Positions 12,901 to 29,555 of a stretch of DNA of 64,000 nt are shown here, one piece after another (within the stretch, counting starts at the first letter, position 1; every line of letters starts with the position of its first letter). The DNA is from a virus. The stretch is from positions 1 to 64,000 of IMG/VR virus record IMGVR_UViG_3300027659_003120. One strand, 5' to 3'. A program made the translations under genes and the position numbers. Under the pieces are notes generated by a model, which was given only the letters and a program-made list of their open reading frames with translations, did not search any database and was not told the origin of the DNA.

Positions 12901-15511
12901 AGACAATAGTATAAACAACTCTACTATTACAAAAAACGGTGATGTTTCAGTTCAACGGTTCTCACCATTTGGCCCACAAACACAAACAGCAAATACGCAT
13001 AGTGCTTACTTTAGCACAAAAACTGATTTTATAAGCGTACCCGCAACCGCTGCACTCACAACATTTACTGGTGATTTTACATTTGAATGTTGGGTAAATC
13101 CAACAGATACAAGTATTAGTACAACTTGGGGAATTTGGGATAGTAGAAACTCAGGACAAACTGCATCTGCAATGATTTTTTTCTTGACAGGATTAGCTAG
13201 TCCTGTAACTGGTCAGTGGCGATTAAGCTATTATAATAGTGGATCTCAGTATTATGGAACTGGTGTTGTATACGCTAATCAGTGGACTCATGTGGCCTTT
13301 GTTCGCAGTGGCTCAACTCTTACATATTATGTTAATGGTGTAGCCGGTGGCACAACTAGTGTTGGAGCAGGAACAATTTCAGGTAGTGCAACTTCTAATC
13401 CTGTGTATATTGGAACTAAAGACGGTAGTTTAGCCGGTTACGGTAATGTTGGCTATATCAGCAATTTTCGTGTAGTAAAAGGTGTAGCAGTATATACAGG
13501 TAATTTTACAGTACCTACATCACCCCTAGCTGCTACACAGGCTGCGGGTACAAATATAACAGCCATTACAGGTACACAGACCAGCTTGTTAACCCTGCAA
13601 AGCTCAACCTTTGTGGACAACAGCAGCAATAATTTTGTTATAACGGCAGGCGGCACAACTAAACCAAGAACACTGAATCCGTTTGGTTTCACTAATACCC
13701 TAGCAGCATATAGCGCCGCAACATATGGTGCGTCAGCCTACTTTGATGGCTCTGGGGATTATTTGAGTGTGCCTAGCAGTTCTTCATCTTCTTTTGGCAC
13801 AGGTAATTTTACTGTTGAATGTTGGGTTTACATGACTGCAAATAGCAGTTATAGAATGTTATTAGGAAATGGTACTTCTTATCTATGTATTGTTGATGGC
13901 GCATTAAATGCCTATTATTCTGGTGTAAGTATTTCTAGTTCTGCTACTGTTGCTTTAAACACATGGACACATGTTGCGTTTGTACGTTCTGCAGGAACGA
14001 TGTATTTTTATATTAATGGTGCTTTATCCAATTCAACTGCTTTTGCAGGTACTTGGGGTACTACCGGAGTTAGTACCATTGGGTATTCACTAGCTTATAG
14101 TGGGCTTTATTACTATACAGGGTATATTTCTAATTTCCGCATAGTTAATGGTACAGCAGTTTACACCTCAAACTTTGTGCCACCAGCCGCACCTCTAACA
14201 GCCATCACCAATACCAGCTTGCTGCTTAACATGAACAGTGCTGGCATATATGACTCAGCCAGTATGAATGACTTGGAAACTGTAGCCGATGCAAAGATAC
14301 TAGCAACACAAACTCCCTATGCCGGCAGTTACTACAGCAACTACTTTGATGGCACTGGGGATTATTTATTAACTCCATCATCTAGTCAATTTAACTTAAC
14401 TGGTGATTTTACAATTGAATGCTGGATATATAAAAATAATCCGTTGGTTGACGGGAATGGTATATTTGGTATAGGCACAACAGATCCAGACAGTAGTTTG
14501 GTTAGAATATCCGCAGGGGTACTACAATTTTGGTTAGGTGGATCAAATGGAGCCGGACCCGGTACCGGTACAAAAACAGGAATAATATCTTGTGCTACAG
14601 CAATTTCAAGTTATACATGGTATCATGTTGCATTGGTTCGCAGTGGCTCATCAGCAAATAATGTTAAGTTATATCTTAATGGTGTATTAGATGGGCAGGG
14701 TACCGGAACATATCAAGTACCAACTGGTTATTTTGTTATTGGTCGGGATTATCCTACATATTCTATTGAATATTTTCCCGGATACATTTCAAATTTACGT
14801 GTTGTCCACGGAACCGCAGTCTACACCTCAACATTCACCCCAAGCACAACACCGCTAACTGCAATTGCAAACACCCGTCTACTAACCTGCCAGTCAAACC
14901 GTTTTGTAGACAACTCAACTAATGCTTTTGCCATAACAAAATATGATAATACCAGTGTTCAATCGTTTAATCCATTCCAGCGCAATAGTGCTACAACCAT
15001 GTATTTTGATGGTACTGGAGATTATTTAACTGCACCGTACAATCCAGCATTTAATTTTGGTACTGGTAATTTTACTATTGAATTTTGGGTCAATACTGCT
15101 TCAACAGCCGCATACGCAACCGCATTACGATTGGGAGATACTTGGACAACAGGTAGTTGGGCACTTTACTTAAATGATTCTGGTGGTAGTGGAATTCCAA
15201 GTTGGTGGTCATACACACTAAACACCGCACTAAGCACTTCGGGTGCAACAATTAATGACGGTGCTTGGCATCATATTGCATTAGTTAGAAATAGTACTAC
15301 TATGACAATGTATATAGATGGAACTAGTAGAGGAACATTGGCAGTTAGTACTAGTTCTGTTGGAGATACTACTACTAAGTTATGGATTGCCAGGGATTCT
15401 AGTAATGTTCGTGAATTAGCTGGTTACATCAACGACCTCAGAATCACCAAGGGTATTGCACGATATACAACAACCTTTACGCCATCAACTACGGCATTTT
15501 TAACATACTAA
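9989..15511 (+). CDS. Giant adhesin with seven LamG/concanavalin-like domains
   Basis: This 1840-residue protein begins with an IPT/TIG-like domain (about residues 20-115) and a putative Ig (He_PIG) domain with the classic LPVG...TGVITGTAP pattern. Seven LamG-type jelly-roll domains follow. Each opens with a version of YFDGTGDYL and closes with GYISN.R.VKGTA.YT and LTCQSN..DNS. Opening motifs lie near 11041, 11681, 12349, 13006, 13738, 14340 and 15001. LamG domains usually bind carbohydrate, so this is probably a receptor-binding or capsule-binding tail protein. The fourth copy (YFSTKTDFI) is the most diverged. Domain-level duplication is evident. No protease or hydrolase motif was recognised. 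Confidence 0.85.
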   Translation: MSIASVKNDILSKESVINAFTPLAPTISSYNILVDAVIINDTAIDTAGGQTIQINGTSFAQGAIITLDGSTVTTAYVSPNKLTFTAPVKTAGTYAIYVVNLDGGTAIYIPGLVYSGTPVWTSAAGSLGSIYETNSISTTAFTTTGDAPITYALYSGTLPVGSSLNTDTGVITGTAPVDSGSTVYSFTIKATDAQLQDSLQSFSLTINTDTVTWSSPANNSTTTLSQNTASTTALSASSAAGKSITYTSDTLPTGLSISGASVTGSPTVLGSTTSLFTATAATSGRTATRTINWTITVANDVYFMYDSLLLSGGTSTSTFIADESVNNFALTIAGDTKPNNFNPYTPGYYSNYFDGTGDYLSVAAGNAALAFGTGDFTVEFWVYPVVFGSVSNSAPTMVAIHDGANNTGWQLYLTDGSIGIRTHYSNVMYLTASMASYLGVWTHIAYVRSSGTQKIYMNGVEKVSTSTVWNWTDTTLKIASQAQDFNGYFSNVRLVKGTALYTSAFTPPTAPLTAISGTSVLTCQSNRFIDNSTNAFTIIVAGNTKVDPKTPFVPNTQYAAYGSTYFDGTGDYLYTPQNAAFSFGTGDFTVEGWYYLTAIVTDQALLMLGTGANGAGPIYCGWWLKYSSYGALTFYRYDGTETTYSFSTTLVVNTWYHIACSRSGTSLRMFLNGTQLGATATSSISFNNANSDPLQIGKCITGQGTFYYNGYVSNVRIVKGTAVYTSNFTPSTTPLTAVTGTSLLTCQTNQPVNNSVFLDNSTNALAITSAGNATQGTFSPYGANWSNYFDGTGDYLSSTLTAIGTNDFTVEYYSYLISHSGSNEESGYFQISGVNGGISTSYLVGVCAARASPGNGRVLVIYIGSSTILTTYVLPLNTWFHTAIVRQSNVVKVYINGTLVSTPATISTNLTGAYYAIGGIYSSSYLMNGYISNFRVISNTAIYTATFTTSTSPLTPISGTSVLTCQSNQIIDNSINNSTITKNGDVSVQRFSPFGPQTQTANTHSAYFSTKTDFISVPATAALTTFTGDFTFECWVNPTDTSISTTWGIWDSRNSGQTASAMIFFLTGLASPVTGQWRLSYYNSGSQYYGTGVVYANQWTHVAFVRSGSTLTYYVNGVAGGTTSVGAGTISGSATSNPVYIGTKDGSLAGYGNVGYISNFRVVKGVAVYTGNFTVPTSPLAATQAAGTNITAITGTQTSLLTLQSSTFVDNSSNNFVITAGGTTKPRTLNPFGFTNTLAAYSAATYGASAYFDGSGDYLSVPSSSSSSFGTGNFTVECWVYMTANSSYRMLLGNGTSYLCIVDGALNAYYSGVSISSSATVALNTWTHVAFVRSAGTMYFYINGALSNSTAFAGTWGTTGVSTIGYSLAYSGLYYYTGYISNFRIVNGTAVYTSNFVPPAAPLTAITNTSLLLNMNSAGIYDSASMNDLETVADAKILATQTPYAGSYYSNYFDGTGDYLLTPSSSQFNLTGDFTIECWIYKNNPLVDGNGIFGIGTTDPDSSLVRISAGVLQFWLGGSNGAGPGTGTKTGIISCATAISSYTWYHVALVRSGSSANNVKLYLNGVLDGQGTGTYQVPTGYFVIGRDYPTYSIEYFPGYISNLRVVHGTAVYTSTFTPSTTPLTAIANTRLLTCQSNRFVDNSTNAFAITKYDNTSVQSFNPFQRNSATTMYFDGTGDYLTAPYNPAFNFGTGNFTIEFWVNTASTAAYATALRLGDTWTTGSWALYLNDSGGSGIPSWWSYTLNTALSTSGATINDGAWHHIALVRNSTTMTMYIDGTSRGTLAVSTSSVGDTTTKLWIARDSSNVRELAGYINDLRITKGIARYTTTFTPSTTAFLTY

Positions 15512-15545: not shown

Positions 15546-17411
15546 ATGGCATTGACAGTAATTAAACCATCAGGAATAGATACAGCCGGTAACTATACAG
15601 TTAACGACATAACTGTTTCTGCCAATGCGTCTATTGCTAATCTTACTGTCACTACTTCAAGTAACTTAGGCGCAGTAGCAAATGTACATATCTATGGAGG
15701 TTCTAACGGAAATGTACTAAGCACAGATGGCTCAGGAATATTGAGTTGGTCCGCAGGTGGTGGCGGTGCTCAAGGTGCTACTGGTGCTCAAGGAGTTCAA
15801 GGTGCTACTGGTGCTCAAGGTGCTACTGGTGCTCAAGGTGCTACTGGTGCTCAAGGAGTTCAAGGTGCTACAGGCGCTCAAGGTGCTACTGGTGCTCAAG
15901 GTGCTACTGGTGCTCAAGGTGCAACTGGTGTTCAAGGATTTCAAGGTGTTGCTGGTGCTCAAGGTGTTTTAGGCGCTCAAGGAGTTCAAGGTGCAACTGG
16001 TGTTCAAGGTGCTACAGGTGTTCAAGGATTTCAAGGTGTTGCTGGTGCTCAAGGTGTTTTAGGTGCTCAAGGCGTTCAAGGAACTGCTGGTGCTCAAGGT
16101 GTTTTAGGTGCTCAAGGAGTTCAAGGTGCTACTGGTGCTCAAGGCGTTCAAGGAACTGCTGGTGCACAAGGTGCTACAGGTGCTCAAGGAGTTCAAGGTG
16201 CAACTGGTGTTCAAGGATTTCAAGGAACTGCTGGTGCACAAGGTGCTACAGGCGCACAAGGTGATATTGGCGCTCAAGGTGCTACAGGTGTTCAAGGAGT
16301 TCAAGGTGTCTTAGGTGCTCAAGGAGTTCAAGGCGCTCAAGGGTTTCAAGGTGATGTTGGCGCTCAAGGTACTGTAGGTGCTCAAGGTGCTACAGGTGTT
16401 CAAGGATTTCAAGGTGTAGCTGGCGCTCAAGGTACTGTTGGTGCTCAAGGCGCTACAGGCGCACAAGGTGATGTTGGCGCTCAAGGCGCTACAGGCGCAC
16501 AAGGTGCTGTTGGTGCTCAAGGCGCTACAGGCGCACAAGGTGATATTGGCGCTCAAGGTGCTACTGGTGCTCAAGGAGTTCAAGGTGTTGCTGGCGCTCA
16601 AGGTACTGTAGGTGCTCAAGGCGCTACAGGCGCACAAGGTGATATTGGCGCTCAAGGTGCTGTTGGTGCTCAAGGAGTTCAAGGTGCTACAGGCGCACAA
16701 GGTACTGTAGGTGCTCAAGGTGCTACAGGTGTTCAAGGCGCTACAGGCGCACAAGGTGATATTGGCGCTCAAGGAGTTCAAGGCGCTCAAGGGTTTCAAG
16801 GTGATGTTGGCGCTCAAGGTACTGTAGGTGCTCAAGGTGCTACAGGTGTTCAAGGAGTTCAAGGTGTTGCTGGCGCTCAAGGTACTGTAGGTGCTCAAGG
16901 CGCTACAGGCGCACAAGGTGATATTGGCGCTCAAGGTGCTGTTGGTGCTCAAGGAACTGCTGGTACAGGTGCTCAAGGAGTTCAAGGTGCTACTGGTGCT
17001 CAAGGAGTTCAAGGTGCTACTGGTGCTCAAGGAGTTCAAGGTGCTACTGGTGCTCAAGGAGTTCAAGGTGCCACTGGGTCTACATCAAGAGTAGTTTCTA
17101 TTGCAGACGGTACATCAATTACCATTAATGGTGATACGACTGATATTGCTACACAAACAAATACTCAATCAGCAGGCACACTAACAATAAATGCTATTAC
17201 CGGAACACTAGTAAACGGTCAAAAAATAATATTAAGACTACAATCTACAAATGTTCAAACTTTCTCCTGGAATGCAATATTTTCAGGTTCAACCGATTTA
17301 TCTTTACCCACAGCGTCATCGGGTAGTAGTAAATATGATTTTGTTGGGTTCATATATAATACCACAGCTACAAAATGGCAATTATTAGCTAAAACTTTTG
17401 GATTTACATAA
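15546..17411 (+). CDS. Collagen-like tail fibre protein (third copy)
   Basis: This 621-residue protein has a TAAGGA ribosome-binding site. A beta-rich head (residues 1-73) contains [13 protein letters not shown], also present in the 6966 gene. About 145 Gly-X-Y triplets follow (residues about 74-511), then a C-terminal beta domain of about 110 residues ([20 protein letters not shown] onward). One triplet is short by a residue (GTA-GT-GAQ, about 16950-16970), a likely kink in the triple helix. Stretches of its triplet region are base-identical to the 6966 gene. Probably a spacer or receptor-binding fibre. Confidence 0.85.
15766..17080 (+). repeat. Collagen-like triplet repeat block
   Basis: This is the longest Gly-X-Y run of the window, about 1.3 kb with 9-bp periodicity. 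Larger repeated cassettes such as [12 protein letters not shown] recur. About 15920-16010 matches the 72-bp unit of the 6966 gene almost exactly. Confidence 0.95.
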
Positions 17412-17645: not shown

Positions 17646-20600
17646 ATGGCAACTAAATATTGGCGGGTAGGGGGGACAAACACCTGGAGTAGTACTGCCA
17701 ATTGGTCAGACGTAAGTCCAACTGGTGCGACCGGCGCCGCTATTCCTGTTATTGGTGATGATGTTGTTATTAGTAATGTTGGGCAAACAGCTGGAACAAT
17801 AAACATTACAGCAACTGCAACCGCAAAGTTGAATTCGTGGACTGTTATAGGCGGCACCTGGACTGTTGCTGGATCTCAGCAAGTTAATATTGCAGGTACT
17901 TTTGATTGTCAAAATGTTACTTGGACTAATACCGGTACTCTTTCTCTGCAAGGAACAGGTGGGTCATATGATATCACCGCCAGTGGTACAACTTTTAATT
18001 GTGCTGTTCAATTTAATGGATTCATTGTTGCCGGCTCTAGTTTTAATTTACTATCGGCATTCACTACTGGTGCAACTCAAACCACAACATTGACTGCGGG
18101 TACTTTAATATTAAATAATTTTACATTAACAACCGGAATATTCAACACCAACGCAACCAACACCAGACAAATTCAATTTGGTACTGGTAATATAGCGTTA
18201 ATACATACTACCGCAGCAACAACGGTGTTGGTGCTAAGTAATTATACAAATTTTTCTTGTTCTGGAACTGGCGGATTTACTTCGGCTATGTCTGTTACTA
18301 GAACATTTAATGTTGGTAGCACAGGCGCAACCAATTCAATTACAGCTAATCTTGCATTAACGTCTGGTTCAAGTGTACCAAGCTTTACCGCAGGTGGGTG
18401 GTTTAATCATTTAAATTTTACGGGCAGTAGTGTTACTGTGGCAACGCTTACTGTTAACATAAATTCACTTACATTAGCAAGTGGTAGTACATATACTGCA
18501 TTAACAGTAAATGCTGTAGGCACAGGTACTATAACTTCGGCTGGAAAATCATTAACAGCATTCACTGTCAATCATACGGGTACAACTACTCTTAGTGCTG
18601 CACTTAGTACGGGCGTGACTGCTACTACCACGCTAACTCAAGGCACGCTAGATTTGGGTGGATTTACGTTAACTACTGGGGCATTCAGTTCAAGCAATAG
18701 TAATACTCGTGCAATTGCTTTTGGTACTGGCAATATTGCATTGTCACATACTACCGCAGCAACCACTGTGTTGAATATGGCCACGGCTACAGGATTTACT
18801 TGGACAGGTACAGGTGGATTTACTGTGGCTGCTATGAGTAATACAAGAACATTTAGTTTTGGCAGTACTGCCGGCGGCACAACCACTAATGCACCTAACT
18901 TAACATTTACCAGTGGTGCTAGTATTGCAACAATAACCACCGCCGGTTGGTTTAATAAACTGGATTATGGAACTACCTCTTTCACTCAAGGGACAACAGC
19001 ACTAAACTTAAATGGATTAACATTATCAAGTAGTGGAACATATACTTCATTGAGTCCAACTATGAGAGGTACTGGTACTATAACTTCAAATGGAAAAACA
19101 ATAGCAGCATTCACTGTTAATCATGCAGGAACAACTACATTAGCGTCTGCATTAAGTTGTACTACTTATACTCAAACAGCAGGCACTATAAACCGTGCAG
19201 GTTTTAACTTATCATGTTCTAGCACAGCAACATATACAGCAGGTACAATAGCCGGTAATGGTACTATAAATTGCACCACATTTACCGTTTCTGGAACACT
19301 CACGCAAACTGTTGGTGGTATTTCAGCTAGTACAAGTTTTGTAATAACATCAGGTAGTTTCACATACGATGGAGGTACATTATTTGCAGTACCTACATTT
19401 ACTCATACTGCAGGTACTGTAACATTTAATATATCGTATGCATTAACTACAACCGGTACTTATACACACACAGCCGGCACAATAAACTTAGCAGATGGAG
19501 TAACATTATCTACTGGTATATTCAGTTCAAACAATACTAATACTCGTAGTATTGCATTTGGTACTGGCAATATCAATCTTACACATACTTCCGCAGCAAC
19601 CACGGTGTTGAGCATGGCCACTGCAACTGGATTTACATACACCGGTACAGGTGGATTTACTGTAGCTGCTATGTCCGCTACAAAAACATTTGTTTTTGGT
19701 ACCACTGGTGGCACTACATCTATTGCACCAAACTTAACATTTACAACTGGCGCCAGCGTTGCAACACTAACCACCGGCAGTTGGTTTAATACATTAGATT
19801 TTGGAACAACCTCATTCATTTTAGGAACAACATCACTAAACTTAAATGGATTAACATTATCAACTAGTGGCACCAGTACCTCATATAACTTGTTAACAGT
19901 AACTATGAGAGGCACTGGTACTATGAATAAAGGTGCTGGGGTGGGCAGGGCAATAGCAGCAATGACTATTAATCATACCGGTACTACTACGCTAGTCACC
20001 GGTCTCCAGATAAATGGTGCTCTTACTCTGACAGAGGGAACTTTGGATGGCGGTCTTGGCTATGGTATACAGTGTAATACATTTGCAAGTACCGGTACCG
20101 CAACTAGATCAATTACAGGACCCGACGGCAGCGTGATTAATGTAATGGGTTCTGGTGCTACCGCTTTTTCTAATGATTCGGCTGCTGGTATAACAATTGT
20201 TGGGTATACTATCAATATGAACAGTGATTCAGCAAAAACATTTGCGGGCGGCGGAGGATCTTATGCAGCACTGACTCAAAGCTATACAGACTTTTACGCA
20301 GTGGGCCCAGGTGTATTGACAATATCAGGTAACAATTCATTTACTAATTTAAAATATAATCAAGACCTGGGGTCGATCAGGACGTGTACAATTACATTTA
20401 CTATCTCAACAACACAAACAGTTACTGACTTTACTCTTTCCGGTGCAGCAGGCAACGTAATTACAATTAACAGTAGTACCCCAGGTACACAAGCTACTTT
20501 GAGTAAGTCGAGTGGAACTGTGAGTGTGGATTATCTATCAATAAAGGATTCTAATGCCACCGGTGGAGCAACTTGGTATGCCGGAGCAAACAGTGTGGAT

Positions 20601-20681
20601 GCGGGTAATAACACCGGATGGATATTTACGGCGCCGCCGTCACCATCTACAGCTGGAGGCAAGTTCTTTTTATTTTTTTAG
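17646..20681 (+). CDS. Large beta-helical fibre/adhesin protein
   Basis: This 1011-residue protein begins MATKYWRVGG with TWSSTANWSD, a start common among phage and autotransporter-like beta-helix adhesins. It is extremely rich in Thr, Ser and Gly. About three long internal repeats each carry a NTR.I.FGTGNI segment followed by H(T)..ATTVL and TGFT.TGTGGFT (near residues 163, 346 and 625). It ends GGKFFLFF. There is no catalytic motif, signal peptide or membrane helix. It is probably the distal or side fibre closing the adhesion block. A hairpin and a sigma-70 promoter follow. Confidence 0.75.
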   Translation: MATKYWRVGGTNTWSSTANWSDVSPTGATGAAIPVIGDDVVISNVGQTAGTINITATATAKLNSWTVIGGTWTVAGSQQVNIAGTFDCQNVTWTNTGTLSLQGTGGSYDITASGTTFNCAVQFNGFIVAGSSFNLLSAFTTGATQTTTLTAGTLILNNFTLTTGIFNTNATNTRQIQFGTGNIALIHTTAATTVLVLSNYTNFSCSGTGGFTSAMSVTRTFNVGSTGATNSITANLALTSGSSVPSFTAGGWFNHLNFTGSSVTVATLTVNINSLTLASGSTYTALTVNAVGTGTITSAGKSLTAFTVNHTGTTTLSAALSTGVTATTTLTQGTLDLGGFTLTTGAFSSSNSNTRAIAFGTGNIALSHTTAATTVLNMATATGFTWTGTGGFTVAAMSNTRTFSFGSTAGGTTTNAPNLTFTSGASIATITTAGWFNKLDYGTTSFTQGTTALNLNGLTLSSSGTYTSLSPTMRGTGTITSNGKTIAAFTVNHAGTTTLASALSCTTYTQTAGTINRAGFNLSCSSTATYTAGTIAGNGTINCTTFTVSGTLTQTVGGISASTSFVITSGSFTYDGGTLFAVPTFTHTAGTVTFNISYALTTTGTYTHTAGTINLADGVTLSTGIFSSNNTNTRSIAFGTGNINLTHTSAATTVLSMATATGFTYTGTGGFTVAAMSATKTFVFGTTGGTTSIAPNLTFTTGASVATLTTGSWFNTLDFGTTSFILGTTSLNLNGLTLSTSGTSTSYNLLTVTMRGTGTMNKGAGVGRAIAAMTINHTGTTTLVTGLQINGALTLTEGTLDGGLGYGIQCNTFASTGTATRSITGPDGSVINVMGSGATAFSNDSAAGITIVGYTINMNSDSAKTFAGGGGSYAALTQSYTDFYAVGPGVLTISGNNSFTNLKYNQDLGSIRTCTITFTISTTQTVTDFTLSGAAGNVITINSSTPGTQATLSKSSGTVSVDYLSIKDSNATGGATWYAGANSVDAGNNTGWIFTAPPSPSTAGGKFFLFF

Positions 20682-20750: not shown

Positions 20751-20779
20751 TTGACATTTTTATATCTATGTGTTATAAT
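20751..20779 (+). promoter_or_regulatory. Consensus sigma-70 promoter of the glycan/modification island
   Basis: TTGACA (20751-20756), a 17-nt spacer and TATAAT (20774-20779) match the housekeeping consensus exactly, 24 bp before the ATG at 20804. The -10 sits in the context GTGTTATAATG, repeated at other promoters in this window. The island behind it can therefore be transcribed by host RNA polymerase without late factors. Confidence 0.9.
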
Positions 20780-20803
20780 GTAGTATAATTTATAGGAAAT
20801 ATT

Positions 20804-21448
20804 ATGAAAAAAATCTTAATTGCAACACCATGTCTTGACCAAAAAGTTGATGCTTATTTTGTCCATAGTCTTTGTGAATCTATCAAACTTGGTATTAAAA
20901 ATGACCTTGATATTAGGTGTGTCTTTCTTGCCAATGAGAGCATTCTTCCAATGGCAAGAAATGAACTCTTTGCACTAGCATATAAAGAAAACTATGACAT
21001 AATGGTTTTCATTGATGATGATGAAAGTTGGAAAGAACACGCACTAATTGAAATCATTCAATCAAATAAAGATGTTGTAGCTTTGCCTGTCGTAAATAAA
21101 AGCGACACGGTTATCGGATTTAATGTTTGGTTAAACAAAGATTCAGAAAAAGATCCATCTGATGGTTATATAAAAATCAATAAATGCGGTACAGGATTTC
21201 TAAAACTATCAAGAAAAGTAATTGAGGACCTCTGGAACTCAAACACAGAGTTGATGTTTAGAAACAAAAAACTGAAAAATATTTGTGAGTATACATATGT
21301 GAATGGTGATTTTATTGGCGAAGATATCACACTCACTAAAAAAATCAAAGAACTTGGATATGACATTTGGTTAAATCCAAATTATACAGTTTCCCATATT
21401 GGCAATAAAATGTACAAGGGAGACTTTAAGGCTAAAAATAATTTATGA
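20804..21448 (+). CDS. GT-A-fold glycosyltransferase-like protein
   Basis: This 214-residue protein opens with MKKILIATPCLDQ, a typical beta-strand start of GT-A enzymes. It carries VFIDDDESW near residue 71, which supplies the Asp-rich metal/nucleotide-sugar motif. GTGFLKLSR and DFIGEDITLTKK fit the acceptor-side acid region. It is similar in architecture to the protein at 57471. It is the first gene of the island, directly behind the consensus promoter, and overlaps the next start by four bases. Substrate unknown; it likely modifies a surface glycan, a virion glycoprotein or DNA. Confidence 0.7.
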   Translation: MKKILIATPCLDQKVDAYFVHSLCESIKLGIKNDLDIRCVFLANESILPMARNELFALAYKENYDIMVFIDDDESWKEHALIEIIQSNKDVVALPVVNKSDTVIGFNVWLNKDSEKDPSDGYIKINKCGTGFLKLSRKVIEDLWNSNTELMFRNKKLKNICEYTYVNGDFIGEDITLTKKIKELGYDIWLNPNYTVSHIGNKMYKGDFKAKNNL

Positions 21449-22197
21449 TTGATGTTATTATTCCGACAATGTGGATGGCTGAAATAACGCTAGATGCAAT
21501 ACAAAAATATTGCAAAAATCCAAAAGTCAGTAAAGTCATACTGATAGACAACAATGCCAAGATGCGACCTAAAGCATTTTCTAAAATTGCATCCGATTCA
21601 AAAATACAATACGTGTCATACGGAAAAAACCTATATGTAAATCCATCATGGAATGAAGGATATTACAGGTCCGAATCTGACATTATTGCAATCATCAATG
21701 ATGACATAATTGTGAGTGATGATGTATTTGATTTAGTATTGAAACACAATCCAGAGCCTGGCGATTTGATTGGTGTAAATCTGCGTGGTCGTCAAAACAA
21801 TTATAAGATTGATGATATCATTGACACCGAAGAAGAGATTGTTAAATTAAATTATAACAAGAATTCTCCTATTGGTGGGCAAGCATGGGCATTTGGAATT
21901 TGTTTGTTCATGCACAGAAAAACCTATAGAGTTATTCCTAGCATTTATCAGATTTGGTACGGCGATGATTATCTAGCGCAGAGTGCAAAAAATGTATATG
22001 CAATCAATAGCAATAAGATAAAAGGTACCATATCTGAAACTCTTAAAAAGTTTAATAATCCAAATGATGATATTTCTAAACGAATTGAGTTAGACTCTAA
22101 AAATTTTATAAGATTTAATCATTTCCAAAACGGAAAGAACTGGGATATACCAAAAAAAATGATTTCTACATATGAACGTCAAAGAAAATCTACATGA
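21445..22197 (+). CDS. Family-2-like glycosyltransferase
   Basis: This 250-residue protein begins MIDVIIPTMW with the GT2-type VILIDNNA strand-loop near residue 32 and AIINDDIIVSDD near residue 81 as the DxD-equivalent. The sequence then moves to PIGGQAWAFGICLFM and YGDDYLAQ, matching the acceptor region and the late acidic motif. No membrane helix is visible, so it is soluble. It is translationally coupled to both neighbours through ATGA overlaps. Probably a sugar transferase; the sugar and acceptor cannot be read from sequence. Confidence 0.75.
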   Translation: MIDVIIPTMWMAEITLDAIQKYCKNPKVSKVILIDNNAKMRPKAFSKIASDSKIQYVSYGKNLYVNPSWNEGYYRSESDIIAIINDDIIVSDDVFDLVLKHNPEPGDLIGVNLRGRQNNYKIDDIIDTEEEIVKLNYNKNSPIGGQAWAFGICLFMHRKTYRVIPSIYQIWYGDDYLAQSAKNVYAINSNKIKGTISETLKKFNNPNDDISKRIELDSKNFIRFNHFQNGKNWDIPKKMISTYERQRKST

Positions 22198-23102
22198 AAC
22201 AAATTATGAAGTATAGTATTTTTCACATACAAGGTGGCATCGGTAAACATATTGCAGCAACAGCAGTTGCAAAAGCAATTAAGAACAATCATCCAGATAG
22301 AAAACTAATTGTTGTTTGTGCTTATTCGGACATTTTCATAAATTTATCTTTTGTTGACCGTGTTTTTAATATAGGTAATACGAGATATTTTTACCAAGAA
22401 TACATTCAAGATAAAGATTCTATAATTTTTCACCATGAGCCTTACTACACAACAAATCACATTCACAAAAGAAAAAAACTCATTGAAAATTGGTGTGATT
22501 TATATAATCTAAAGTACAACGATGAAACGCCCGAATTGAAATTCAATAAACTACAATTTGATGTTTCTAAAACTGTTTGGGGTAGAAAAAAACCAATAAT
22601 GGTTCTACACACAAATGGTGGCATGATGACAACTGATGCTAAACCATATGCTTGGACAAGAGATATGCCTACTGACATTGCTCAAGAATTAGTTGAACAC
22701 TACAAAAAAGACTATCACATTTTTCAAATCACCAAAATAAATTCTCCTAAGTTAAAGAATGTTGAGCATGTATTTGCTACACCAGAACAGTCATTATCAC
22801 TAATGGAATTGTTTAGTATTTTTCTTCACAGTAAAAAAAGAGTATTAATTGACTCCTGTATGCAACATGCCGCGGCTGCAATGAAACGGAAATCAACTGT
22901 GTTATGGAATGGAACAAGCCCAAAAGTTTTTGGATATGAATTACATGATAATATATGCACTGATATACCATATAATTTTAAGCTTCCGGGCAGTTATCTG
23001 TTTGATTTTGACTTTAATGGGAATGAGGTTGAGTATCCGTTCGCAGATGATGTAAAATTATACGATATAAATAAAATCATAGAATCTATTGATAAACAAT
23101 GA
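22194..23102 (+). CDS. GT-B-fold heptosyltransferase-like protein
   Basis: This 302-residue protein has an N-terminal HIQGGIGKHIAATAVAKA segment resembling the glycine-rich loop of GT9 heptosyltransferases (GD.G..). The second half contains LMELFSIFLHSKK, VLIDSCMQHAAAA and VLWNGTSPKVFGY, matching the C-terminal donor-binding segment where a Ser/Asp-rich loop and WG.T.P motif occur. The start could be 22194 (overlapping the upstream stop) or 22206. It probably transfers a sugar to a lipopolysaccharide-like or protein glycan. No donor specificity is visible. Confidence 0.65.
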   Translation: MKQIMKYSIFHIQGGIGKHIAATAVAKAIKNNHPDRKLIVVCAYSDIFINLSFVDRVFNIGNTRYFYQEYIQDKDSIIFHHEPYYTTNHIHKRKKLIENWCDLYNLKYNDETPELKFNKLQFDVSKTVWGRKKPIMVLHTNGGMMTTDAKPYAWTRDMPTDIAQELVEHYKKDYHIFQITKINSPKLKNVEHVFATPEQSLSLMELFSIFLHSKKRVLIDSCMQHAAAAMKRKSTVLWNGTSPKVFGYELHDNICTDIPYNFKLPGSYLFDFDFNGNEVEYPFADDVKLYDINKIIESIDKQ

Positions 23103-23114
23103 AGGAGATGTGAA

Positions 23115-24068
23115 ATGAAAGAAATGATTAAAGAAATTATTCGTGAAGAAATGATGAGAGCTTCCATGAAAAAATATTACTTCATGTCGGGTTTACCTCG
23201 GTCTGGAAGCACTCTGCTATCTTCAATTTTAAACCAGAATCCTAGAATGTATTCCGGACCCAGTTCTCCTGTTGTAGCTATTATGCTTGCCCTGGAGAAT
23301 GCAATCTCAAGTGATGAATTATTTTTGGCTTTTCCGAAAACTGACCAAGCAGGAAAAATAATTAGTAGTGTTATTGAAAATTATTATTCTGATGTTGATA
23401 AACCGGTTATCATTGATAAAAATCGTTCATGGGTAAATCGTATGCATTATATTCCAGGTTATTTTGGAGTTGAAGCAAAAATTCTTTGCCCAGTAAGAAA
23501 CATGGATGAAATTCTGACTTCATTTATTACTATGCATCGTAGAAATCCATTTGAGATAAATGGTAAAATTAATTTCATTGATGAGATGTTGATTAAAAAT
23601 AATATACCACTGAATGATGAAAATAGATGCCAACTTCTATCGGGACCTAATGGAATTATTGGTCAAAGTTATGGCGGTATTCAACAAGCTATGATGGACG
23701 GCAAACAAAAACAACTTCATTTTATTGAGTATGATGATTTAATGAATGAACCTAAAGAAACGATGCGTAAAATTTATGAATTTTTAGATGAAGAATATTT
23801 TGAACATGATTTTTCAAAGATAGAAAATATACATAAAGAAAATGATGCGGCCGTATATGGTCTTTCAGATATGCATGATGTTCGGAATAATTTAGAAAAG
23901 ATTTCTAAGGACCCAAAAGAAGTATTGCCCGAGTCTATACTTGAAAAATGTCAAGGAACTGAATTTTGGAGAAATGTAAACGAAGATTACACTGAAGAAG
24001 TAGAAGATTTTACACCAAATGAAACCCCTCCCTCAAATGAAGATAACACAAAACTTATAGGACAATAA
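23115..24068 (+). CDS. PAPS-dependent sulfotransferase
   Basis: This 317-residue protein has an AAGGAG ribosome-binding site. After an amphipathic N-terminal helix (about 1-18) comes FMSGLPRSGSTLLSS; PRSGST at about 28-33 is the 5'-phosphosulfate-binding loop of sulfotransferases. CPVRNMDEILTSFI near residues 125-138 matches the 3'-phosphate-binding motif (Arg and Ser). The C-terminal 50 residues are acidic and probably disordered. Sulfotransferase-family genes occur in marine T4-like phages. The neighbouring kinase-nucleotidyltransferase could supply an activated donor. The acceptor is likely a carbohydrate or protein; this is inferred. Confidence 0.85.
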   Translation: MKEMIKEIIREEMMRASMKKYYFMSGLPRSGSTLLSSILNQNPRMYSGPSSPVVAIMLALENAISSDELFLAFPKTDQAGKIISSVIENYYSDVDKPVIIDKNRSWVNRMHYIPGYFGVEAKILCPVRNMDEILTSFITMHRRNPFEINGKINFIDEMLIKNNIPLNDENRCQLLSGPNGIIGQSYGGIQQAMMDGKQKQLHFIEYDDLMNEPKETMRKIYEFLDEEYFEHDFSKIENIHKENDAAVYGLSDMHDVRNNLEKISKDPKEVLPESILEKCQGTEFWRNVNEDYTEEVEDFTPNETPPSNEDNTKLIGQ

Positions 24069-24069
24069 A

Positions 24070-24357
24070 ATGGAAAAAACACCAAAAACACTTGTACAAA
24101 TTCAAGGCACCATTAAATCAGCTAGAGACAGCGTTTGGGTCATCACAGATGAAATTGAAAAACTAACTGCTGGTGCATTACCAAATGAAAACCATAAAGG
24201 CAACATCGGCCGAAATGTTGAACATCTAAAATTGGTTGTTGCAGATACTGAGATTGTTAATTCAGGTGAAGACATTGCCGACCTTATTGCAGCAATTGCC
24301 ACAGGCGAAGCAAAACTTGCTGAGAATATCTGGCCAGCAGCCGACAATACTGAATAA
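24070..24357 (+). CDS. Small helical hypothetical protein
   Basis: This 95-residue protein starts one base after the sulfotransferase stop. It is Ala/Glu/Lys-rich and predicted to be helical, with DSVWVITDEIEKL and a central histidine/asparagine patch (NENHKGNIGRNVEHL). No known domain is recognised. Lying between the sulfotransferase and the kinase-nucleotidyltransferase, it may be an accessory subunit, but nothing in the sequence proves it. There is no membrane segment or signal peptide. Confidence 0.6.
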   Translation: MEKTPKTLVQIQGTIKSARDSVWVITDEIEKLTAGALPNENHKGNIGRNVEHLKLVVADTEIVNSGEDIADLIAAIATGEAKLAENIWPAADNTE

Positions 24358-24374
24358 AAAATTTAATTTATATT

Positions 24375-25232
24375 ATGAAAAAAATTCTAATTATGGGATT
24401 ACCTGGTTCAGGTAAAACTTACCTCGCAGAAAAACTCAAAACATATCTTGAGTATAATGGTGATATTTTTAAAGTAAATCCATATAAGATGATGAATCTG
24501 GAAAGTGGACTTGGCCAAACACCATCAAAAGTTTCTGTTGATTGGTTTAATGCAGATGAAGTGCGTAAGAGATTTAACGACTGGGATTTTAGTAAAGAAG
24601 GCCGTATTCGTCAAAGCATACGAATGTTTGAATTTGCTATGAAATGTTCCAGTGATTTTGTCATATGTGATTTTGTTGCACCGCTGCCAGAAATGCGTCA
24701 CAATTTTAAAGCAGATTGGACAATTTGGATGGACACAATTGATGCTGGTAGATATGAGGACACGAATAAGGCTTTCGTTTCACCAGACTTATATGATTTT
24801 AGAATTACTGAACAGAATGCAGAAAAATGGGTTAAGTTTATTGGAAATCACATTCTTGAAAATATACGCAGACCAAGATTTGATTGGCAAAAAGAAACTG
24901 TGCAGATGCTGGGGCGTTGGCAACCTTGGCATCCTGGTCATAGAGCATTGTTTGATAGGGCAATTGAAAAGACTGGGCAAGTAGTTATACAGATTAGGGA
25001 TTGTCAGGGATGGCAAGGTTCTAATCCATTTGCAATTGAGCAAGTCAAAAATTATATTCAAAGAGACTTGGATCCGGTATATCAAGGGCAGTACGAAATT
25101 CAGATTGTGCCAAATATTGTCAACATTACATATGGGCGTGACGTTGGTTATAAGATAGAACAAGAGGTATTTACTGAAGAGATTCATTCAATCTCAGCGA
25201 CTAAGATTCGTAATGAAATGGGAATCGGATGA
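24375..25232 (+). CDS. P-loop kinase (APS-kinase-like) fused to HxGH nucleotidyltransferase
   Basis: This 285-residue protein has two domains. Residues 1-~165 form a P-loop kinase with GLPGSGKT at 8-15, WFNADEVRKRFNDWDFS resembling the APS-kinase DGDNVR region, and a switch-like DFVAPLPEMR. Residues ~175-285 form a nucleotidyltransferase with GRWQPWHPGH (HxGH about 186-189) and ISATKIR (273-279), the signature pair of NadM- and cytidylyltransferase-like enzymes. Bacterial PAPS synthesis also pairs an APS kinase with an HxxH adenylyltransferase, so activated-sulfate supply for the sulfotransferase is plausible. The second domain looks closer to NadM than to ATP sulfurylase, however. Confidence 0.75.
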   Translation: MKKILIMGLPGSGKTYLAEKLKTYLEYNGDIFKVNPYKMMNLESGLGQTPSKVSVDWFNADEVRKRFNDWDFSKEGRIRQSIRMFEFAMKCSSDFVICDFVAPLPEMRHNFKADWTIWMDTIDAGRYEDTNKAFVSPDLYDFRITEQNAEKWVKFIGNHILENIRRPRFDWQKETVQMLGRWQPWHPGHRALFDRAIEKTGQVVIQIRDCQGWQGSNPFAIEQVKNYIQRDLDPVYQGQYEIQIVPNIVNITYGRDVGYKIEQEVFTEEIHSISATKIRNEMGIG

Positions 25233-25936
25233 TTTATAATGAACCTTATCCACACCATATAATAGATAATTTTATTGATGATGAGATTGCTCATAAATTG
25301 TCAAATGACTTTATGAGTTATGATTCCCCAAATTGGTTTATTTACAACAATCAAATTGAAGTCAAAAAATCATGTAACAACTGGTACAATTTTCCAGAAG
25401 AAACGTATAAGTTTTTTCAGTATTTGAATTCTTCAACATTTGTTCAGAGTTTGTCGGATTTAACTGGTGTACAACTTATACCGGACCATGGATTACATGG
25501 CGCTGGTTGGCATATTCAACCCGCCCAAGGTAAACTGAATGTACATTTGGACTATTCAATTCATCCTAAGCTAGGTTTAGAGCGTAGATTCAATTTAATT
25601 TTTTACCTAACACCAAACTGGAATACATCTTGGGGAGGAAATCTTGAATTGTGGTCACATAACTCAGAGAATAATTCTCCAAAAGAATTGATAAAAATTG
25701 TGGAAAACAAATTCAATCGTGCATTAATTTTTGATACCACTTATAATTCATGGCATGGTTTTTCACAACCAATAACTTGCCCAGAAGGTGTATATAGAAA
25801 GAGTATTGCAATGTACTATCTATGTGAACCATCAAAAACTGCATCCAAACGACATAGAGCATTATTTTCAACAACTGAAGAACAGAAGAATAATGGGAGC
25901 GTTCTAAAATTGATTCAAGATAGGATTAAATTATGA
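25229..25936 (+). CDS. 2-oxoglutarate/Fe(II) oxygenase (prolyl-4-hydroxylase-like)
   Basis: This 235-residue protein overlaps the previous gene by four bases. It has the iron-binding HxD in LNVHLDYS (His about 105), the distal His in NSWHGFSQP (about 175) and the 2-oxoglutarate-binding Arg in VYRKSIAMYYL (about 189). The central FNLIFYLTPNWNTSWGGNLELW matches the P4Hc core. Such enzymes hydroxylate proteins, sugars or small molecules and are common in marine myoviruses. Its place in an island of glycosyltransferases suggests tailoring of a glycan or a virion protein. Confidence 0.85.
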   Translation: MIYNEPYPHHIIDNFIDDEIAHKLSNDFMSYDSPNWFIYNNQIEVKKSCNNWYNFPEETYKFFQYLNSSTFVQSLSDLTGVQLIPDHGLHGAGWHIQPAQGKLNVHLDYSIHPKLGLERRFNLIFYLTPNWNTSWGGNLELWSHNSENNSPKELIKIVENKFNRALIFDTTYNSWHGFSQPITCPEGVYRKSIAMYYLCEPSKTASKRHRALFSTTEEQKNNGSVLKLIQDRIKL

Positions 25937-28278
25937 CAGAAACATGTACAGATAAAATTGTTGAGATACTAAAATCTAAAAAAATTGATAGTTTTGAAGT
26001 TCGTGGCGGCACAGATAAAATCTCTGGGCACAGCTACTCTGAGATATATGGAAAACATTTAAACAAATACTTAGACAAAAAAGGATCTCTCCTGGAAATA
26101 GGAGTATTTTGGGGCGGTTCTGCGGTTTTATGGAACGACTTACTTCCTAATTTTAATTTGTGTTTGTTGGATATAGTAAATGTAATCACTCCAGATAATT
26201 GGGAACAACTTGATAAGAATAGGATGGAATATCTAATTGCAGATGCTTACAATGATGTAACAAGAAACCAGATAAAAGAAAAATATCCAGATGGATTTGA
26301 TGTTATTACTGAAGATGGTCCTCACACTTTAGATAGTCAGTTAAGTTGTATTAAACTTTATTTGCCTCTAATCAAAGAAGATGGAGTAATGATTATTGAG
26401 GACATTGCAAATATAGAAAATTTAAATACATTAATGAAATCAGTTGATAGTAATTATGATTGTATTTCATATGATTATAGGCATATAAAAAATCGTTCGG
26501 ATGATATTGTTTTAGTTATTAAAAAAAGAATGAAAAAATGTAAAATAGTAATGACTGCTATGTTTAAGAATGAGGCATCAGTGACGAAAAAGATGCTTGA
26601 ATCTTGCTACAAATATATTGATTTTTGGGTTGTTCAAGATAATGGATCCACAGACGGAACAGATAAAATAGTTAAAGATTTTTTTACAGAGAAAAATATA
26701 CCCGGCCACTATTATCAAGTAGAAGAAGGTTGGGTTGGTTTTGGATGGAATAGAGACCACTTAATACAAGTGTGCCAGAGTATTGACCATGGGTGCGACT
26801 GGATTTTAAAAATGGATTGTGATGAAACTTTAGAAGTTGATGCTGATTTTGATTGGTCTTTACTTGATGATAAGTCTCAACATTCATTTCATATACCAGC
26901 TGTACAGCCTGGATTATTATATTACAGGGCATGGATGTGGAATGCACAAATGCCTTGGAGATTTAATCACGACCCGTGCCACGAAACTAGTTACTGTGAT
27001 ATAGAGGGTATTGGCGAAAACTACAATAGATTCAACTTGCCTCTTTCTTTTAGACAGGTTGGAACCAGAGGAGGTCAAAGTTGGACTGTGCCAACAAAGT
27101 TTATTAGTGATGCATTAATACTTGAAGAAAAAATGATTCGTGAAAATACAATGTTAACAGATTCATATCATTTTTGGTATATTGGAAAAAGTTATAGTGA
27201 TGCATATTCTAGCAATGCTTTTCCTTTAGGCGAATCTCAACAGAAAGAATATGCGAGAAGAACAATTTATTATTTTCAAGAATTTTTAAATTTCACTCAC
27301 GATTTTGCAAATACAAAAAAATCAAAACATATTGACGAAACCGCTTACATGTCTCTGTTGTTAATGGGAGATGCAAATTGGTATTTAGGACAAAAAGAAT
27401 CTAGTGTTGAATGTTATAAATTAGCTGCTCAATTTGCACCAGAAAGAAATGAACATTTATATCTTTTAGCTGAGAAGAATAAATATCTTGGAAATTTTAA
27501 AGAAATGTTAATTTGTACCTCTATAATGATGCAACCCGAAAGAACAAATCCATTTCCAAAATATATTAACTTCATTGATCCAACTTTATATCACGATGGC
27601 GGTGATAGGATTAAAAATTTACACGCCGAGGCTTTTTCATATGTTCAATCTATTTGTGTTGCCGAACAAGAACCAGTTGAATTTTTACCAGTACAAAAAA
27701 ATATTATGACAAATTTTAATATAAACAAAAATTATCAAAACAGAATGTTTATTGTGGATAATTTTTATGAGAATCCAGATTCTATTAGGCAACATGCACT
27801 CACAATGGAATTCAAAGAAGACATAAGATATTATAAAGGTTTAAGAACGACTACACACTTTCACCCAAATGGAATTAAAGAATCATTTGAATCTATAATG
27901 GGTAAAAAAATTAACAATTTTGATGGAGGCATCAATGGTTGTTTTCAAATAACTACAGCAAATGATGTTCAGGTGTATCATTATGATTTACAAACTTGGG
28001 CTGCTATGATATACTTGACGCCAAATGCTCCTATTGAAAGTGGAACTAGATTACATCGCTCAAAGATTAATGGCACAAGACATTCAAGTGAGCCCAATAT
28101 AGATGATGCGTTTACTGGTGGCTTCTTGGATTCTACAAAATTTGAGGTTACCGATTCGGCTGCTAATATATACAATAGACTAGTCATTATGGATGCAAAA
28201 TGTATTCATTCAGCAGGTGCATATTTTGGCGACAACAAATATAATGGTAGACTAACTCATTTATTCTTTTTTGATTAA
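25933..28278 (+). CDS. Three-enzyme fusion: methyltransferase, GT2 glycosyltransferase, 2OG-Fe oxygenase-like
   Basis: This 781-residue protein is modular. Residues ~1-200 form a class I SAM methyltransferase (LEIGVFWGGSAVLW as motif I, LCLLDI, and DVITEDGPHTLDSQL typical of CmcI/Methyltransf_24). Residues ~202-440 form a GT2 domain (VMTAMFKNEASV, VVQDNGSTDGTD, WILKMDCDETLEV). A helical, TPR-like linker (~465-540) follows. Residues ~600-781 form a jelly-roll oxygenase of DUF6445 type with VYHYD (HxD about 683), CIHSAGAYFG (second His about 758) and a late Arg (GRLTHLFFF). The fusion suggests sequential tailoring of one acceptor. It overlaps the upstream gene by four bases. Confidence 0.8.
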   Translation: MTETCTDKIVEILKSKKIDSFEVRGGTDKISGHSYSEIYGKHLNKYLDKKGSLLEIGVFWGGSAVLWNDLLPNFNLCLLDIVNVITPDNWEQLDKNRMEYLIADAYNDVTRNQIKEKYPDGFDVITEDGPHTLDSQLSCIKLYLPLIKEDGVMIIEDIANIENLNTLMKSVDSNYDCISYDYRHIKNRSDDIVLVIKKRMKKCKIVMTAMFKNEASVTKKMLESCYKYIDFWVVQDNGSTDGTDKIVKDFFTEKNIPGHYYQVEEGWVGFGWNRDHLIQVCQSIDHGCDWILKMDCDETLEVDADFDWSLLDDKSQHSFHIPAVQPGLLYYRAWMWNAQMPWRFNHDPCHETSYCDIEGIGENYNRFNLPLSFRQVGTRGGQSWTVPTKFISDALILEEKMIRENTMLTDSYHFWYIGKSYSDAYSSNAFPLGESQQKEYARRTIYYFQEFLNFTHDFANTKKSKHIDETAYMSLLLMGDANWYLGQKESSVECYKLAAQFAPERNEHLYLLAEKNKYLGNFKEMLICTSIMMQPERTNPFPKYINFIDPTLYHDGGDRIKNLHAEAFSYVQSICVAEQEPVEFLPVQKNIMTNFNINKNYQNRMFIVDNFYENPDSIRQHALTMEFKEDIRYYKGLRTTTHFHPNGIKESFESIMGKKINNFDGGINGCFQITTANDVQVYHYDLQTWAAMIYLTPNAPIESGTRLHRSKINGTRHSSEPNIDDAFTGGFLDSTKFEVTDSAANIYNRLVIMDAKCIHSAGAYFGDNKYNGRLTHLFFFD

Positions 28279-28280
28279 TT

Positions 28281-29552
28281 ATGAAAAATTTGAAATTTAG
28301 TATTATTACTCCATCACATGATCCAGGAAACATTCCTTACTTGTTAGAAGCATTTGAAAGTTTGTGTGAACAAACTCATGCCAATTGGGAATGGATATTA
28401 GCTATAAACAATAAATTTTTACCACAACTTGTTCCAAAGATAATCAAAGAACATCCAAAAGTAAAAATATATCATACTTATATTGAATCATCAAATATTG
28501 GTGCAATTAAGCATGAATCATTTTTCTTGGGTGAGGGTGATGTTTTAGTAGAACTAGACCATGATGATATGCTTACTTCTAATTGTTTGAAGAAATTAAA
28601 CGAAGCATATCAAGATGATGATGTTGGATTTGTTTATAGTGATAATGCAACATTACATATGGAGAACAATTTTATTCCATTTAATAATTCATACGGCTGG
28701 ACACATAGGCCGTTTGAGTGGAAAGACAAAGAACTCATTGCAATGAATTCTTTCAAACCAACAAGCCATGCAATGTCTTATATTTGGTTTGCTCCAGACC
28801 ATGTTAGGTCATGGAGAAAAGAACATTATGTCAATATTGGTGGACATAATCCTGATATGTTTGTTTGTGAAGACCATGAATTGTGTATTAGAACTTACCT
28901 AACTACAAAAATGGTTTTTATACCTGAACCACTTTATGTTTACAGAATAACAGGAAACAATACTTCTATAAACAAAAGAAATCCAGAAATTCAACAAAAG
29001 ACTAAAGAACTACATGCTCAGTATGCACAAAAATTGGCAGAGAAAGATGCTAAGGATAGAAAATTATTATGTGTGGATATTGGTGGAGGTTTGAATCCTT
29101 ATCCAAATTATTTATCTATTGATTTAAGAAAAGATGCGGATGTCATACATGACTTAAATGATGGTATACCTCTCAGAGATAACACGGTAGGTGTACTAAA
29201 CGCAAGTCATATACTAGAACACTTGCACGATAAGACGAAAATAATGGCAGAAATACATCGTGTATTAGCACCGGGAGGATGGGCGTTCATTCAAGTTCCA
29301 AGTACCGATGGAAGAGGTGCATTTCAAGACCCAACACATGTTAGTTACTGGAACGAAAATTGCTTTTTATATTATACCGATGCATATTTGGCTAATTTTA
29401 TAGATAACAAAGATATCCGTTTTCAAGAATATCGTAGAGAGACATACTTTCCTAATGAATGGATGAAAAATCTAGGCGTATGTGTCACGGACGCTTGGTT
29501 AGTTGCAATTAAAGATGATATGCCAAGATTACCTGGTCCATTAAAGATATAA
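28281..29552 (+). CDS. GT2 glycosyltransferase fused to SAM methyltransferase
   Basis: This 423-residue protein starts two bases after the preceding gene. Residues 1-~250 are GT2: FSIITPSHDPGN, a VELDHDDML metal-binding motif near 90-97, and the late VCEDHELCIRTYL acid motif. Residues ~262-423 are a class I methyltransferase: CVDIGGGLNPYPNYLSIDLR (motif I), ASHILEHLHD and HRVLAPGGWAFIQVPS (type-11 signature). Similar glycosyltransferase-methyltransferase fusions make methylated sugars in O-antigen-type clusters. Its stop codon lies within the late promoter of gp13, so it ends the island. Confidence 0.85.
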   Translation: MKNLKFSIITPSHDPGNIPYLLEAFESLCEQTHANWEWILAINNKFLPQLVPKIIKEHPKVKIYHTYIESSNIGAIKHESFFLGEGDVLVELDHDDMLTSNCLKKLNEAYQDDDVGFVYSDNATLHMENNFIPFNNSYGWTHRPFEWKDKELIAMNSFKPTSHAMSYIWFAPDHVRSWRKEHYVNIGGHNPDMFVCEDHELCIRTYLTTKMVFIPEPLYVYRITGNNTSINKRNPEIQQKTKELHAQYAQKLAEKDAKDRKLLCVDIGGGLNPYPNYLSIDLRKDADVIHDLNDGIPLRDNTVGVLNASHILEHLHDKTKIMAEIHRVLAPGGWAFIQVPSTDGRGAFQDPTHVSYWNENCFLYYTDAYLANFIDNKDIRFQEYRRETYFPNEWMKNLGVCVTDAWLVAIKDDMPRLPGPLKI

Positions 29553-29555
29553 ATA
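29548..29555 (+). promoter_or_regulatory. T4-type late promoter for the neck genes
   Basis: The perfect TATAAATA octamer overlaps the stop codon of the preceding gene and lies 24 bp before the gp13 ATG. This matches the T4 late consensus recognised by gp55-loaded RNA polymerase. Confidence 0.85.

Follow-up and report, generated by a model that had tools for sequence, protein, structure and literature searches.

In a freshwater-type T4-like phage, an island of nine genes is best understood as a glycosylation–sulfation cassette, mobile and linked to fibres, followed by an accessory module of oxygenase, glycosyltransferase and methyltransferase domains. The reading we prefer, with slightly better than even confidence, is that the cassette glycosylates and sulfates the phage's own fibres in the cytoplasm. 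The stretch of DNA analysed, referred to here as the window, comprises the first 64,000 nucleotides of an IMG/VR record of 91,816 bases (91.8 kb). A search of phage records for near-identical DNA found none. The features to which the text refers are:

41–3640, plus strand: fibre with collagen-like residues 521–793, eleven 17-residue NTTG repeats from residue 819 and a weak S74-like tail
17646–20681, plus strand: Thr-rich fibre directly upstream of the island in the window, without the 17-residue repeat
20751–20779, plus strand: extended -10 sigma-70 promoter, TTGACA-N17-TATAAT with TG, a perfect match
20804–21448, plus strand: i1, GT2-like (GT-A) glycosyltransferase (weak PF00535; phrog_1574; invariant DDD)
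21445–22197, plus strand: i2, GT2 glycosyltransferase (PF00535 above cut-off)
22194–23102, plus strand: i3, predicted GT9-fold (heptosyltransferase-like) glycosyltransferase and cassette core (AlphaFold model, fold search)
23115–24068, plus strand: i4, sulfotransferase (PF13469 2e-15 and PF00685 9e-12, both above cut-off)
24070–24357, plus strand: i5, 95-residue protein that comes after i4 in most cassettes
24375–25232, plus strand: i6 (KNT), fusion of an APS-kinase-like kinase and a NadM-like HxGH nucleotidyltransferase (PF01583 above cut-off)
25229–25936, plus strand: i7, 2OG-Fe(II) oxygenase (PF13640 2e-14)
25933–28278, plus strand: i8, sugar-O-methyltransferase-like, GT2, TPR and DUF6445 2OG-type oxygenase domains
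28281–29552, plus strand: i9, GT2 and class I methyltransferase (domain matches)
29548–29555, plus strand: TATAAATA, plausible T4-type late promoter -10 element, overlapping the i9 stop 32 nt ahead of the gp13 ATG

An initial annotation, made from the sequence alone, had described nine plus-strand genes in near-continuous overlap behind a perfect sigma-70 promoter, with at least five glycosyltransferase domains, two methyltransferase domains, a sulfotransferase, a kinase–nucleotidyltransferase and two 2OG-oxygenase domains, and our analysis bears out this inventory. The nine ORFs (20804–29552) are tightly spaced, with junctions from i1 to i9 of -4, -4, +12, +1, +17, -4, -4 and +2 nt. The glycosyltransferases are i2, i8 and i9, which exceed the PF00535 cut-off, i1, which matches weakly, and i3, assigned to GT9 by its predicted fold; the island accounts for all four PF00535 (GT2) matches in the 91.8-kb record. 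The methyltransferase domains form the N-terminus of i8 and the C-terminus of i9, and a third, carried by relatives as a tail on i2, is deleted here. The island consists of two modules: the i1–i6 cassette (GT2-like, GT2, GT9, sulfotransferase, 95-residue protein, APS-kinase-like/nucleotidyltransferase) and the rarer accessory genes i7–i9, which are present in few relatives.

On both sides of the island the gene content is T4-like, with fibres and a giant protein of baseplate-wedge type upstream, and gp13, gp14, gp15, terminase, sheath, tube, portal and the major head protein downstream. The cultured relatives identified by gp13, all below 60% identity, infect Methylophilales, Pelagibacter and cyanobacteria. 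When we surveyed their slot between fibres and gp13, it was empty in Melnitz, held 2OG/phytanoyl-CoA oxygenases and a ferrochelatase in HTVC008M, and held 2OG, heme and bilin enzymes in Mosig. The slot is a variable site, and the cassette is a special feature of the window. A defence-system identity was dropped, as a PADLOC search for such a system returned a generic 2OG match as its sole result.

The first glycosyltransferase, i1, scores 17.5 bits against PF00535 (cut-off 23.3). Residues D71–D73 are invariant, 3 of 14 i1 relatives reach an E-value of 0.01, and a PDB sequence search with i1 gave no convincing match. A 450-residue relative of i2 carries a C-terminal Methyltransf_24 domain; relative to contig L083, a deletion of 603 bp that shows ACA microhomology has removed this tail from the window. 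The AlphaFold2 model of i3 (pLDDT 85) predicts a GT9-type GT-B fold glycosyltransferase. Its top fold matches are GT9 enzymes, followed by GT9-like chains of NDH supercomplexes, with Z-scores of 17–23 over 243–268 residues; 3tov reaches 23.2, WaaF 21.2, WaaC 19.8 and TibC 19.7, and non-GT9 enzymes stay below 11. The model fits LPS heptosyltransferases and TibC about equally. Against PF01075, i3 scores 12.4 bits (cut-off 22), and its homologue in phage HTVC112P scores 22.1.

The PAPS-binding motifs of i4 (5'-PSB and 3'-PB) are invariant in 13 relatives, comprising G26-L27-P28-R29, G31-S32-T33, R128 and S136. In tyrosylprotein sulfotransferases the catalytic Glu lies within a CGEETRVI stretch; the aligned stretch of i4 is SGPSSPVV, which does not retain the Glu, and we rejected this identity. 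Bacterial homologues of i4, 51–54% identical, occur in three Burkholderiales MAGs (L267, L268 and L270, at about 10000–13400). They adjoin a fusion of Asp/Asn-hydroxylase and sulfotransferase of about 615 residues, whose domains were checked in L267, and the same loci hold a large opposite-strand protein that resembles TonB-dependent receptors by eye only.

In a fold search with the kinase domain of i6, the first 30 rows were APS kinases or APS-kinase-type domains (Z 15.4–17.8), with gluconate kinase next at 15.2. The residues that contact APS in the Penicillium enzyme, which we take to be Arg66, Phe75, Arg80, Asn83 and Ser107, align by eye with R64, F72 and R77, all invariant, and with Gln80 and Ala102. 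The C-terminal domain matches NMN adenylyltransferases and carries the NadM-type motif GRWQPWHxGH together with ISATxIR. The gene is widespread in phages and is not confined to the cassette; a sulfotransferase lies nearby in 42 of 80 loci, versus 0 of 32 gp13 loci lacking i6. Because many i6-bearing contigs have no detectable sulfotransferase, a role for i6 in supplying PAPS or another donor is no more than possible. We rejected i6 as an established PAPS synthetase, since the ATP-sulfurylase motif is absent and the gene often occurs without any detected sulfotransferase. In Stenotrophomonas and Clavibacter phages (L111–L113), the i6 homologue variously adjoins a NADAR gene (Bhz60), sits close to a MazG-like gene or has an Fe(II) oxygenase nearby (DLP_6), hinting at a different role there. 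Between i5 and i6, contig L096 (11272–12033) and its relatives L086, L087 and L100 encode a fusion resembling heptose-1-phosphate adenylyltransferase and mannose-6-phosphate isomerase, which is absent from the window.

In the accessory module, the PDB matches of i7 are OGFOD1 and prolyl hydroxylase. The DUF6445 C-terminus of i8 bears an HxD...H...R motif (H94, D96, H170 and R184) that is invariant in 13 sequences, by which it counts as the second 2OG-type oxygenase of the island. A full-length homologue of i9, 50% identical, is found in Synechococcus phage S-CRM01. Three fibres of the window (ORFs 41–3640, 6966–9653 and 15546–17411) are collagen-like, with 91–147 Gly-X-Y triplets each, almost no Pro, no Lys, and mostly Gln, Val or Thr at the Y position. 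We considered collagen hydroxylation, with 2OG and glycosyltransferase activities acting on Gly-X-Y as in PLOD, and rejected it on this composition and on the absence of collagen repeats near most cassettes.

Dozens of viral contigs carry the i1–i6 cassette. An i3 search of viral contigs yielded 80 loci, 73 of them newly fetched, and a sulfotransferase adjoins the GT9 gene in 72 of these 73, the exception being a contig that ends just past i3. Genes are usually arranged as fibre, i1, i2 with its methyltransferase tail, i3, sulfotransferase and i5, sometimes followed by the adenylyltransferase-like/isomerase-like fusion and i6. The order and linkage of i1–i5 are retained across divergent phages; in the most divergent loci the sulfotransferase precedes i3, with the pair still together. 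Cassettes are 49–93% identical between phages, and the neck, tail and terminase genes of the same phages mostly 25–62%. In 23 loci with both cassette and neck genes, mean identity of the GT9 and sulfotransferase to the window is 60–92% (median 71), versus a median of 44% for the core genes gp13, gp14, gp15 and gp17. Cassette identity exceeds core-gene identity in 21 of these 23 loci, most clearly in L085, where GT9 and sulfotransferase are 93 and 90% identical and the core genes 25–47%. Since the cassette is far more similar than the core genes, the block spreads horizontally; it is mobile and moves as a module.

Relatives add sugar-building genes to the cassette, among them heptose-1-phosphate-adenylyltransferase-like genes, a GDP-mannose/dTDP-glucose dehydratase-type enzyme (L217), a DegT aminotransferase with an epimerase, GT25 and FkbM (L264), and a UDP-galactopyranose mutase between i9 and i8 homologues (L222). 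Their presence supports a glycan product, which would vary between phages. After the cassette, L089 (5918–8545) encodes a single 875-residue protein combining FkbM methyltransferase and radical-SAM/SPASM parts, and L238 (14300–16895 of a 260-kb record) has opposite-strand genes that are iron-sulfur-scaffold-like by eye only.

Perfect sigma-70 sites number six in the window, where 0.16 are expected, and seven in the whole record, in which the reversed pattern does not occur. In the structural half the site at 20751 stands alone; the other six, at 46–76 kb (46855, 47459, 55787, 57028 and 58603 in the window and 75727 in the record), are probably early promoters. The cassette promoter is kept at -52 to -64 of i1 in seven relatives (L083, L085 and L087–L091; 11–12 of 12 positions matching), even where gp13 is merely 43–51% identical, and is absent from most other cassettes examined. 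The annotated end of the island at a late promoter of gp13 stands as to position; identification of TATAAATA as a late promoter is no more than plausible, because the motif, with 4 observed against 10 expected, is rarer than chance overall.

The recurrent companion of the cassette is a fibre with the repeat F-[FI]-G-x2-A-G-x2-N-T-T-G-x2-N, of period 17, and an S74-like, coiled-coil-like tail. Of 28 cassettes, 21 have this NTTG fibre no more than 8 kb upstream, versus 0 of 63 controls (0 of 16 gp13 loci and 0 of 47 i6 loci without a cassette), a contrast whose Fisher tests overstate independence because the loci are phylogenetically related. Conversely, a search with the fibre tail recovered the GT9–sulfotransferase pair in 17 of the 23 contigs found. 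Fibres accompany the cassette with no neck gene nearby in L222–L230 and L235–L237; neck genes are optional neighbours and the repeat fibre is the usual one. In the cultured 32-kb Pelagibacter phages HTVC111P and HTVC112P, the stop of an S74-tailed fibre gene overlaps by 1 nt the start of an i3 homologue (HMM E-value 1e-20), with the 17-residue-period NTTG repeats demonstrated for the HTVC112P fibre. We regard this overlap as the strongest argument that the GT9 enzyme may serve the fibre. The association is not universal. Seven of the 28 cassettes lack an NTTG fibre in the 8-kb interval, the NTTG fibre of the window genome is 17 kb upstream of the island, whose immediate neighbour is another fibre, and vir515, Venkman, CRP-1 and PT1-4 carry NTTG-like or S74-tailed fibres without an adjacent glycosyltransferase.

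Because the cassette repeatedly accompanies a repeat-rich fibre gene in unrelated phages, it probably decorates the phage's own fibres. TibC, an adhesin glycosylator, is among the closest folds to i3, and i1–i9 have no predicted membrane segment (maximum 19-residue hydropathy 1.43) and no membrane-family match. From the gene content, folds, linkage, horizontal movement and promoter observed here, we infer the acceptor, the donor sugars, the sulfation and the order of steps. Cytoplasmic glycosyltransferases, led by the GT9-fold enzyme, would assemble a short glycan attached to the side chains of the repeat fibre. SAM-dependent domains would methylate this glycan, and i4 would sulfate it with PAPS, an activated donor that the APS-kinase-like i6 may help supply. 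Hydroxylation of the fibre or the sugar may fall to the 2OG oxygenases of i7 and i8, and the early sigma-70 promoter would allow the enzymes to be made ahead of the late fibres. The initial annotation had left the target as fibres, host surface or both; with the repeat fibre rather than the neck genes as usual neighbour, the survey favours fibres. Its proposal of a pathway for a methylated, sulfated glycan is well supported by the domains, the obligate GT9–sulfotransferase linkage and the nucleotide-sugar genes added in relatives. A single pathway for the whole island stands in part: i7–i9 form a separate module, and the slots of cultured relatives hold unrelated sets or nothing.

The main alternative, which we hold less probable, is that the cassette remodels the LPS core or capsule of the host with a methylated, sulfated glycan that blocks superinfection or alters recognition, fibre and cassette being adjacent because both concern the same receptor. 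The predicted fold of i3 is as close to WaaC and WaaF as to TibC, relatives encode an HldE-like adenylyltransferase, and the promoter is early; clusters in cyanophages P-SSM2, S-SM2, S-SSM7 (PMC3037559) and S-SCSM1 (PMC9602691) have been discussed in this way. Against host remodelling, i1–i9 include no membrane protein, flippase, polymerase or ligase, the neighbour is one particular repeat fibre, and the minimal version in HTVC111P and HTVC112P is a fibre with a single glycosyltransferase. Cytoplasmic modification of the LPS core would, however, require no flippase, polymerase or membrane glycosyltransferase.

We consider it unlikely that auxiliary genes with nothing in common merely piled up by chance in the hypervariable slot ahead of gp13, with i6 serving nucleotide or cofactor metabolism, i7 and i8 2OG turnover, and the glycosyltransferases something separate. 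The contents of the slot in HTVC008M, Mosig and Melnitz agree with this reading, as do the scarcity of i7–i9, the many phages with i6 and no sulfotransferase, and a Casjensviridae phage with i6 beside NADAR; the retained order and linkage of i1–i5 across divergent phages and the excess of sulfotransferases near i6 speak against it. DNA hypermodification, in which oxygenases hydroxylate a base that glycosyltransferases and a kinase then decorate, is very improbable: phage clusters of that type do combine oxygenases, glycosyltransferases and kinases, but i7 matches PF13640 and OGFOD1/prolyl hydroxylases, i8 matches DUF6445, no island gene convincingly matches a DNA-modification family, and the linkage is to fibres rather than replication genes.

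More speculatively, and with considerable doubt, we propose a transferable, phage-encoded system for the sulfation and glycosylation of a phage's own 17-residue-repeat fibres, in which i6 would be a compact enzyme that makes the donor, possibly as a minimal fusion of an APS-kinase-like and an HxGH domain able to produce PAPS. Our literature searches found no report of a sulfated glycan on a phage's own fibres or of virion sulfation for any phage, and nothing on a phage-encoded sulfotransferase, also when combined with tail fibre and glycosyltransferase. Host range is determined by the tail fibres, which are hypervariable. If the proposal is true, part of the phage recognition surface would be a sulfated sugar that cannot be read from the fibre sequence. 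HTVC111P and HTVC112P are cultured phages in which fibre glycosylation is directly testable, and the question bears on the many aquatic-phage genes for glycosyltransferases, sulfotransferases and 2OG enzymes, which commonly carry a host-surface or auxiliary-metabolic label.

Several known systems resemble parts of the island. Like it, the LPS/cell-wall clusters of T4-like cyanophages belong to aquatic T4-like phages and group glycosyltransferases with 2OG oxygenases and genes for sugar nucleotides. In P-SSM2, S-SM2 and S-SSM7 their reported position is close to hli03 or phoH (PMC3037559), and the literature treats such clusters as host-surface genes or as stuffer DNA (PMC3037559, PMC9602691); in contrast, the cassette is mobile, goes with fibres and centres on the GT9–sulfotransferase pair. 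Mycobacteriophages reportedly glycosylate proteins of their own virions, at the C-termini of capsid and tail-tube proteins (Freeman et al. 2023, as cited in PMC12619734), whereas for the cassette we infer fibres as the target, with sulfation and methylation in addition. TibC, which glycosylates adhesin autotransporters (PMC4358343), shares the GT9-type fold predicted for i3. Its iron finger is formed by C339, 342, 358 and 370 (PMC4358343); the cysteines of i3 are at 42, 101, 222 and 255, only two columns are Cys in at least 80% of relatives, and we rejected i3 as a BAHT-type autotransporter heptosyltransferase for want of the four-cysteine finger. PAPS synthetase and i6 both join an N-terminal kinase domain to a C-terminal HxGH-type nucleotidyltransferase, and i6 often lies near sulfotransferases, but its C-terminal domain has about 110 residues and the NadM-type motif, unlike PAPS synthetase with the ATP-sulfurylase motif QxRNPxHxxH. 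HTVC111P and HTVC112P share the S74-tailed NTTG fibre with the cassette loci and have a homologue of i3 directly after it, with no sulfotransferase, methyltransferase, GT2 or kinase annotated nearby. The cassette is a variant of the phage glycan-modifying clusters and is itself new.
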